Shown here: in pieces, positions 22,895-24,379 of the stretch
How the letters are laid out: every line of letters begins with the position of its first letter
Numbering within the stretch: position 1 is the first letter of the stretch
DNA from: Cubamyces lactineus
Lineage: Eukaryota; Basidiomycota; Agaricomycetes; Polyporales; Polyporaceae
Length of the DNA: 64,000 nucleotides
Direction: 5' to 3'
Assembly: GCA_022376465.1 (NCBI GenBank)
Contig: JACDTU010000013.1
Span: forward strand, 182,501-246,500
Position numbers and translations under genes: made by a program
The notes under the pieces: model-generated
What the model saw: only the letters and a program-made list of their open reading frames with translations
The model's database searches: none
What the model was told of the DNA's origin: nothing

Positions 22895-24309
22895 CTACTC
22901 CGCCGTGTCCATGTCCGCAGGTCCCTCCGGACCTTTCCCCTCCTTCGCACCCTCGCCCTGCTCCTCCTCCTCCTCCTCCTCCTCACCGGACTTGCCCCGC
23001 GCGGACTTGTCCACCAACCCCGTCCCACTCTCCTCCTCCTCCCAGTCCGACCCAGCCACACCCGCCCGCTCCAGCGCGTCCGCGATCGCGTCCTCCTTGT
23101 CCTGCGAGGTGATCTCGAGGATCTCCCGCAGCATAGTCCCGAACTCCGTCGCGAGTTCGGACTTCACCGCCTCGCGGACGGCCTCGCCGATCACGGCCTT
23201 CAGCTCCTTCCGCACGATCTTGGCGATGGCGTCGCCAAGACCCCGGACCTCCTCCCGCATCATCTCCTCCCGCTGCTCCTCCTCGTCGATCAGCAGGTCG
23301 ATGACCCGCCCCGCGGTGCGCCGGTTGCGCTGCACCGCGACAAGCAGGTGCTCGAGGAGCTCCCGGTCGGAGAGCTTCTCCGGGTCGTCGGACCACCGGA
23401 GGTCGGACTTCCCAACCTCCGGAAGTCCGGAGCTCGCAGACATCCGGGGGCCCGTCGACGAGCCCGCAAGGCTCGGGCCCCGGGCTACGACCGTGTGCGC
23501 TGGTGGGTTAATCCCGGGTGGTGCTACAAACGTCCAGCGGACCTCACCTGGCTGAAGCGGCTTCTCCGCCGTCTTCTCCTTCTCCTTCTCCTTTCCCTTG
23601 CCCTTGTCCGCCCGCACCTTCTCCGAACTCCGTACTCCGGTGGGCGCGGGGGTCTCAAACCCGTCGTCGTCAACGACGATGGCGGCGGACTTGACCTTTT
23701 TGCGCTGCGGGCTTGGGGCCTCCTCCTTGCGCGCGATTCGGGCTTGGATGTCCGCGGGAAGTCCGCGAGCCCCGACGCACGCGCGCGACCGGGCCTTCTG
23801 GCACTGGACGCAACTCGACGTCCTCTTCCCCGCGCGGAACCGGCACGCGATCTGTTTCGCCGCGCACCGGTCGCACTTTGTCCTGTGGAACTCCGTTAGC
23901 CTGAACCCCGCACTCCGTACCCCGACCGGGCTTACCGCGGGACCAACAACTCCGCATCGTCCTCTTCCTCCTCCGACTCCGGTTCGTCGTCCTCCGCGGG
24001 ACGCTTGCTCCCCCGCGCGGAAGTTCCGGCCTTCGCGAGGGCAGCCTGGCGAATCAACGCCGCTGCTTTTTGTGCGGCCTCGTACTCCGCGCGCTCCTTC
24101 TCCTCCCGCGCTCGCTCCTCCTCCCGCTTTCGCTCCTCCTCCGCCCTTCGCGCCCTGTAAACCACCGGTTAGCCCGAACTCCGTACCCCGAACTCCGCCA
24201 ACTCCGGTACTTACGCCTCCGCTGCCGCGGCCTCCTCCGCCGCTGCCTTCATCCGGAGCTGCGCAAGGTGGGCCTCCAAGGCCTGGATGTTGTCGAGGGT
24301 GCTGGACAT
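22895..24309 (-). CDS. Antisense spliced Zn2Cys6 coiled-coil protein encoded within element 1 (433 aa)
   Basis: On the minus strand the ATG is at 24309. Three exons (24215-24309, 23936-24154, 22895-23882) join in frame through GT-AG introns of 60 and 53 nt and end in TAG at 22895-22897. A TATATAAG lies at 24379-24372, about 70 nt before the ATG. The N-terminus is an alanine/arginine/glutamate coiled coil (about residues 10-70). Near residues 107-141 six cysteines follow C-X2-C-X6-C-X10-C-X2-C-X7-C, the fungal Zn2Cys6 binuclear cluster of Gal4-type DNA-binding proteins. A basic QRKKVK patch may be a nuclear signal. The C-terminal half is helical and ends in a polyglutamate tract. The gene converges on the pol end and is lost from element 3. 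A role in element regulation or targeting is inference. Confidence 0.8.
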
Positions 24310-24371
24310 GGTGTTGCTGGTGGTGGTAGGGGACAGAGAGCGAGGAAGAACTGGCTAAGTCTCACCCCCGT

Positions 24372-24379
24372 CTTATATA
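24372..24379 (-). promoter_or_regulatory. TATA box of the antisense gene
   Basis: Reads TATATAAG on the minus strand, about 40 nt before the expected 5' UTR and 70 nt before the ATG, between the gene and the 3' LTR. Confidence 0.55.

Follow-up and report, generated by a model that had tools for sequence, protein, structure and literature searches.

An intron-containing antisense gene for a Zn2Cys6-like protein within a Ty3/gypsy chromovirus of Cubamyces lactineus, and a candidate target word across the element

How can an element that passes through RNA carry a gene with introns, and what might such a gene do for it? This question is raised by a 64,000-nucleotide stretch of Cubamyces lactineus DNA (contig JACDTU010000013.1, positions 182,501 to 246,500; hereafter the window), in which a Ty3/gypsy retrotransposon, element 1, carries a minus-strand gene between pol and its 3' long terminal repeat (LTR). 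Antisense accessory genes of LTR retrotransposons have been noted for decades without a settled function, and examples that lie before the 3' LTR have been described from plants and from the Boty element of Botrytis. The gene of element 1 is a genuine, selected, intron-containing antisense gene. Its product is likely a Zn2Cys6-type protein, and a short word, CGGAGT, recurs across the element as a candidate target.

Gene structure, copies and selection

The gene reads leftward on the minus strand. A TATATAA box at 24379-24373 precedes exon 1 (24309-24215, 95 nt, with the ATG at 24309), intron 1 (24214-24155, 60 nt, GTAAGT...CTAAC...CAG, three CGGAGT words), exon 2 (24154-23936, 219 nt), intron 2 (23935-23883, 53 nt, GTAAGC...CTAAC...CAG, two CGGAGT words) and exon 3 (23882-22895, 988 nt). 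Exon 2 encodes a charged stretch that looks coiled-coil-like by eye, and exon 3 encodes a six-cysteine cluster, PQRKKVK, which resembles a nuclear localization signal (NLS), a conserved helical domain and an acidic tail. The model was rebuilt from the window DNA, and the spliced product has 433 amino acids plus a stop. Retention of either intron brings in-frame stops. The initial annotation, made from the letters alone, had described three exons with GT-AG junctions and 433 codons, which proved exact to the base; the junctions it listed, 23882/23936 and 24154/24215, coincide with exon edges, and its six-cysteine array with fungal Zn2Cys6 spacing reads CX2CX6CX10CX2CX7C. It had also given the gene a TATA box of its own, and the TATATAA was present in all 38 loci that cover it. 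The gene is likely spliced, with a predicted promoter of its own just inside the 3' LTR.

Copies of the gene were collected from the 36.3-Mb genome. A DNA search, with the best 40 of 64 candidates scored, gave 42 matches that make up 40 loci, the window's own included. A protein search, in which 97 of 142 candidates were scored, gave 111 matches with identities of 53% or more and added further, mostly partial copies beyond the 40 loci. Intron 1 was bounded by GT-AG in 37 of 38 covered loci and by GC-AG in the other, and intron 2 by GT-AG in 40 of 40. The CTAAC branch point was found in 34 of 38 and 40 of 40 loci, respectively. Starting from gag instead, with the best 40 of 61 candidates scored, the gene lay downstream and antisense within 9 kb in 32 of the 40 copies, 25 of these at a distance of 3.80-3.86 kb. 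Among the eight gag copies without a nearby gene, two run off contig ends, one is an internally deleted copy in the window (element 3), and one is without any match; the remaining four have antisense-gene matches on the right strand 11-22 kb off, judged by coordinates. Absence from the family, or loss of the cysteines and splice sites, had been named beforehand as fatal to the initial annotation, and neither was found: the gene accompanies most gag copies, with cysteines and splice sites kept. The retention of introns across genomic copies agrees with the earlier claim that they outlast retrotransposition. Introns of this gene can persist because reverse transcription acts on the sense RNA, which holds them only as their complement, with no splice sites to be read.

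Selection was measured on 36 pairs of nine diverged intact copies, out of 23 intact; the 14 other intact copies, which differ from copy L021 at 25 or fewer counted codon sites, were left out of the pairs. The antisense frame gave 0.023 nonsynonymous (dN) and 0.198 synonymous (dS) substitutions per site, a ratio (omega) of 0.118. This comparison among copies, proposed with the initial annotation, places the antisense frame under constraint. Omega in the five other frames was 2.4, 3.0, 1.5, 0.19 and 3.9. The frame at 0.19 (0.188) is sense frame 1, which shares its wobble base with the antisense frame, and among differences silent in only one of the two, the antisense frame was favoured 292 to 103. 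Two sense open reading frames (ORFs) were rejected as real coding frames on this basis, one of 370 amino acids at 22787-23899 (omega 1.5) and one of 216 amino acids (the wobble-sharing frame). Between the window copy and L021, omega was 0.078 for the antisense gene, 0.048 for gag and 0.115 for pol, and changes in the antisense gene at codon positions 1, 2 and 3 numbered 10, 7 and 63, respectively. Across seven pairs with the window copy, omega ranged over 0.03-0.24 for gag and 0.10-0.33 for pol, and the value for the antisense gene falls within this range.

Two observations weigh against a gene that selection maintains. The whole spliced ORF is intact in 23 of the 40 loci, and the gene is broken or partial in the other 17. 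Only 12 of 30 distinct exon indels, counted over 32 near-full copies with broken ones included, are multiples of three, and for that reason the indels alone give no support.

Divergence also varied along the element. The introns differ between subfamilies by 0.057-0.069 per site (uncorrected), against a dS of 0.198 at the synonymous sites of the gene, as if they were constrained beyond the needs of splicing. The antisense gene and 3' LTR generally diverge more between subfamilies than gag-pol, and dS between the window copy and L021 was 0.235 for the antisense gene vs 0.085-0.095 for gag and pol. One copy, L015, is a mosaic. Its 5' LTR, gag and pol are 100% identical to those of L023 (rounded, in 400-bp windows), and identity then drops to 92-97% over part of the antisense gene and the 3' LTR, a pattern as from template switching.

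Protein features and relatives

By eye, the protein consists of a coiled-coil-like N-terminus, an acidic patch, the six-cysteine cluster and the NLS-like PQRKKVK, followed by a KGKGKEKEK linker, the conserved helical domain (WSxDPExLSDRELLEHLL...) and the acidic tail. Zn2Cys6 clusters have the spacing CX2CX6CX5-12CX2CX6-8C, and the spacing in the antisense protein fits this range. A Pfam scan of the window protein did not reach the cut-off for Zn_clus (PF00172) or for any other Pfam domain; two relatives, P0008 and P0022, scored 7.5 and 13.7 bits, respectively, against a Zn_clus cut-off of 21. Since the cut-off was not reached, we call the protein Zn2Cys6-like and do not assign it to PF00172. 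The scan gave no TRP28 match and, up to E 10, no bZIP match, and a HEAT_GCN1 match below cut-off (E 0.0059) was taken as a chance match to a helix.

Structures were also compared. With a 64-residue model of the cluster, Foldseek returned just PPR1 and Gal4 at E up to 10, and VIA returned PPR1 and 1cld, with 33 residues at 1.9 Å; we take 1cld to be LAC9. With a larger predicted model, Gal4 was the top Foldseek match and HAP1 and PPR1 were found by VIA. These matches are weak, and almost all are Zn2Cys6 regulators. In a sequence search of the PDB with query A4, PPR1 ranked third among five weak rows, with E 0.89 and an alignment roughly over the cysteine columns. Query A1 gave nothing at E up to 10, and the single-sequence and query A6 matches look like chance.

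Relatives were sought in three rounds over 5.8 billion proteins, with about 8,000 candidates scored in each. By the second round there were at least 15, from Cubamyces, Trametes cubensis, T. sanguinea, T. cinnabarina and one ENA sequence; homologues outside the own genome are 32-63% identical. The third round added further fragments, along with two remote relatives from Pisolithus (E 0.0027 and 0.75), and UniRef names the Pisolithus protein Zn(2)-C6 fungal-type. An hhalign comparison of the family with the Pisolithus pair, covering coiled coil and cysteines, gave a probability of 94.9 and E 4e-8, and BLASTP of P0008 against P0021 gave 31% over 104 columns. Because much of this stretch is charged helix, the cysteine part is what counts in the match. 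The cluster alignment has 11 rows; five of the six cysteines occur in all of them, and the first cysteine is missing from one. Five of the 15 homologues were left out of this alignment: P0001, P0005, P0010 and P0012, in whose models the cluster is absent or partial, and P0013, whose fourth cysteine is a serine. The ENA fragments P0016 and P0018-P0020 begin within exon 3 and are therefore uninformative on splicing. A scan of viral contigs for relatives of P0002 confirmed none.

That species have several paralogues, some of them fused or truncated, suggests that the relatives in other species lie in elements as well. The annotated model of P0015 (T. cinnabarina) continues past the zinc cluster as an unrelated protein that looks like a hAT transposase, which suggests the insertion of another transposon.

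The spacing, the conservation of the cysteines and the weak but concordant structural matches make a Zn2Cys6 type likely. The Zn2Cys6 identity proposed by the initial annotation thus stands on these grounds and lacks a Pfam assignment. With its coiled coil, zinc cluster, basic NLS-like patch, conserved helix and acidic tail, the protein is likely nuclear.

The CGGAGT word and the possible role of the protein

CGG is the classical half-site of Zn2Cys6 proteins. CGGAGT or its complement ACTCCG occurs at 13.9 per kb in each LTR, 8.3 per kb in gag-pol, 28.8 per kb in the spacer between pol and the antisense gene (22791-22894, 104 nt, three words), 38 per kb in intron 2 and 50 per kb in intron 1. 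Densities were 0.3-0.4 per kb in two host stretches and 0-0.8 per kb in an unrelated chromovirus of the same window (element 2). The word is thus about 20-40 fold denser in the LTRs and gag-pol than in nearby host DNA, and more so in the introns. Exon 1 and the stretch between the antisense gene and the 3' LTR (24310-24516) have none. Eight of 15 words fall in the introns and spacer, which make up 217 of 1519 nt (p 0.0004), and every covered locus has at least one word per intron (38 and 40 loci). In 500-bp bins over 20 long loci, element interiors were rich in the word and flanks nearly empty; L011 has a word-empty stretch inside, and L013, L014, L018, L019 and L020 are rich only toward the 3' end.

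Coding sequences were compared with 300 synonymous shuffles each. Pol has 26 words vs 7.6 expected (reached in 0 of 300 shuffles), gag 8 vs 3.9 (5 of 300) and the antisense coding sequence 7 vs 2.5 (1 of 300). Element 2 was unremarkable, with 3 vs 1.7 in pol (75 of 300) and 2 vs 1.3 in gag (115 of 300). Across 15 LTRs, CGGAGT is kept in register at 0.81 vs 0.60 for all other hexamers, and a few other repeated words match it. Genome-wide, CCGTACTCCG occurs 566 times vs 75 for a reversed-pattern control. ACTCCG predominates over its complement by 62 to 7 in element 1 and 65 to 15 in L023, a bias owed partly to strand composition. Among counted pairs of CGG in the LTR, direct repeats at spacing 4 are commonest (12), and no clear CGG palindrome was found there. 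The pattern CCGTACTCCGTACTNCG was set aside with only 3 occurrences. The initial annotation had offered CGGAGT-type motifs as a target; the element-wide enrichment strengthens this word as a candidate, and its binding by the protein is a prediction. Regulation of the LTR promoter and a part in directing integration, the two roles suggested in the initial annotation, are both kept here as hypotheses.

The position of the words in U3 bears on what binding could achieve. Five of them in the 3' LTR (24565-24663) are flanked by the antisense TATA at 24373 and the sense TATA at 24856, and the 5' LTR has the same array upstream of the genomic promoter. With slightly better than even confidence, we favour a nuclear, element-encoded factor that recognizes CGG-bearing words in the DNA of its own family, regulating all copies in trans. 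The expression, binding and direction of control that we infer would run as follows. An antisense transcript from the promoter on the 3'-LTR side would be spliced and translated into a nuclear Zn2Cys6-type protein. This protein would bind CGGAGT, often as CCGTACTCCG, across the LTRs, spacer, introns and coding DNA of its family. Bound along its whole length, every copy of the element would be marked in trans, with transcription or chromatin as the regulated step. At the U3 array, binding could couple the synthesis of the protein to that of genomic RNA; the words there have the antisense promoter on one side and the sense promoter on the other, so that a single array could govern the regulator as well as the genomic RNA of the following round.

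Other explanations were weighed against this one. The protein could be an accessory of the integration complex or of nuclear import that rides the cDNA by means of its zinc cluster and NLS, with CGGAGT unrelated. The basic NLS-like patch occurs in 8 of 10 homologue rows, the gene adjoins a chromodomain integrase, and antisense proteins of plant elements have been suggested to act in nuclear entry or other nuclear steps (PMC7264820). Such a role seems rather unlikely to us, since a protein made from an antisense transcript would presumably not be packaged with gag-pol and the enrichment of the word would be left unexplained. The word might instead act in the sense RNA as a packaging or localization signal read by Gag, or reflect mutation or repeat slippage, while the protein binds something else. 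The bias toward ACTCCG would fit this, as would the excess of words in coding DNA over synonymous expectation. The richest stretches, though, are the introns of the antisense gene, and in pol both orientations exceed synonymous expectation (22 vs 6.9 and 4 vs 0.6); together with the identity of CGG as a Zn2Cys6 half-site, these points leave an RNA signal or slippage unlikely.

An antisense transcript that works as RNA, through double-stranded RNA, silencing or interference, with the ORF as a passenger, would have parallels in the antisense RNA roles discussed for other elements (PMC7264820). It is hard to reconcile with an omega of 0.118, the excess of third-position changes and homologues elsewhere at 32-63% identity, and we consider it quite improbable. 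Introns and a host-type domain would also suit a host transcription factor that was captured recently and is hitch-hiking in the element. We give this equally little credence: no distinct single-copy parent is evident among the 111 own-genome matches listed, taken together rather than placed singly, the gene stands behind most sampled gag copies, and related proteins occur in several species. Finally, GC-rich DNA can hold antisense ORFs by chance, and long sense ORFs, such as that of 370 amino acids, do overlap the gene. Each sense frame either has an omega above 1 or is outscored at sites where it conflicts with the antisense frame, and introns and cysteines are conserved; the frame control and the conserved copies rule a chance ORF out for practical purposes.

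The host element and comparison with known systems

Element 1 is a Ty3/gypsy chromovirus with a minus-strand accessory gene between pol and the 3' LTR, in the position of the antisense accessory ORFs termed aORF-3R. It lies on the plus strand between target-site duplications ATAAG at 17935-17939 and 25232-25236. The 5' LTR (17940-18654, TGTTA...TAACA) and the 3' LTR (24517-25231) are each 715 bp long and differ by 6 mismatches; the 5' LTR carries CGGAGT/ACTCCG words and a sense TATAAATA at 18279, and the words of the 3' LTR lie at 24565, 24591, 24606, 24649 and 24663. Gag (18686-20155, 489 amino acids) matches Retrotrans_gag and Ty3_capsid. A pol remnant (20158-22650) retains protease, reverse transcriptase, RNase H and part of the integrase zinc domain, and a polypurine tract (24497-24516) precedes the 3' LTR. 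The TG...CA termini, the 5-bp duplication and the polypurine tract are those of a Ty3/gypsy element. The window copy lacks the integrase core and is about 1.1 kb shorter than full-length copies. One of these, L023, has a 1265-amino-acid pol with integrase core and chromodomain, which makes the family a chromovirus. An LTR pair was found in 13 of 20 long loci, and in three (L022, L023 and L025) the pair is 100% identical, which indicates recent transposition.

The window contains other repeats. A second copy of the family, element 3 (47135-51840), has a 489-amino-acid gag ORF reading as in element 1. It has lost RNase H, integrase and the antisense gene to an internal deletion that starts in mid-pol (about 50834, by eye) and reaches the 3' LTR, and is still rich in CGGAGT. 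Element 2 (27471-36400) has an open 1207-amino-acid pol with integrase core and chromodomain, and its LTR pair, starting at 27471 and 35838, was reported with 0 mismatches over 300 nt. A large inverted-repeat block that contains short-period repeats is present twice, at 7867-10215 and 39770-41877, with pieces 97-99% alike.

Among fungal elements, the gene can be set beside brtn of Boty in Botrytis cinerea, compared here by description only; we know of no zinc cluster, introns or self-word in brtn. Boty is likewise a gypsy-type element with a chromodomain and an extra antisense gene (PMC7264820, PMC8365987, PMC4227169). PMC7264820 places brtn among antisense ORFs between pol and the 3' LTR and states that for such ORFs a clear similarity to known proteins has not been described. 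In plants, gene23 of maize Grande, the ORF of rice RIRE2 and TRP28 of Retand are also antisense, between pol and the 3' LTR, and present in most copies; Grande has its own promoter and a nuclear protein, and for Retand, DNA binding is predicted and tandem repeats occur within the same region (PMC7264820, PMC11963269). In contrast to the fungal protein, these carry a TRP28 domain, with no Zn2Cys6-like cluster reported in the available text of the two papers, and the main text of PMC11963269 nowhere uses the word "intron".

Two further systems resemble the gene in what it may do. HBZ of HTLV-1 is antisense, expressed from the 3' LTR as a spliced RNA, and a nuclear regulator of its own provirus (PMC10186651), a function that we infer here; unlike the antisense protein, it is a bZIP protein, and it belongs to a retrovirus. 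VANC of the Arabidopsis VANDAL elements is a transposon-encoded DNA-binding protein whose short word has accumulated in its own family, including the introns of its own gene (PMC5735166). The CGGAGT word has likewise accumulated across its family, introns included, with exon 1 and the gene-to-3'-LTR stretch as word-free parts. VANDAL elements, by contrast, are plant DNA transposons with a different protein and targets that form tandem repeats, and binding and loss of methylation have been shown there (PMC5735166), whereas the fungal element is known from its sequence. Gal4, PPR1 and HAP1 share the six-cysteine spacing and, weakly, the predicted fold; the cluster of the antisense protein differs in sitting behind an N-terminal coiled-coil-like stretch and in missing the Zn_clus cut-off. 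For bdelloid elements, the sole "antisense" passage in the available text of PMC5408684 concerns small RNAs. Among the open-access papers listed by our literature searches we found no description of a Zn2Cys6-like, intron-bearing antisense retrotransposon gene or of a matching self-word, in line with the earlier view that a spliced DNA-binding regulator in a fungal element is undescribed.

These likenesses allow a more specific proposal, which we advance tentatively and hold with well under even confidence. A chromovirus may have independently evolved a VANC-like system, in which a spliced antisense Zn2Cys6 master regulator is paired with its own CGG-type word all over the element, introns and coding DNA included. 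The protein would distinguish family members from the rest of the genome and lift or set their silencing in trans, and such systems might be common in mushroom-forming fungi, represented by anonymous "Zn(2)-C6" proteins.

Herein, strong selection on the gene, a domain that probably binds DNA and a candidate for its target word come together, and the question of function is therefore directly testable by a binding assay. The gene would show how an element that passes through RNA keeps introns, and its family may explain some of the anonymous Zn2Cys6-like proteins in the genomes of polypores and other mushrooms.
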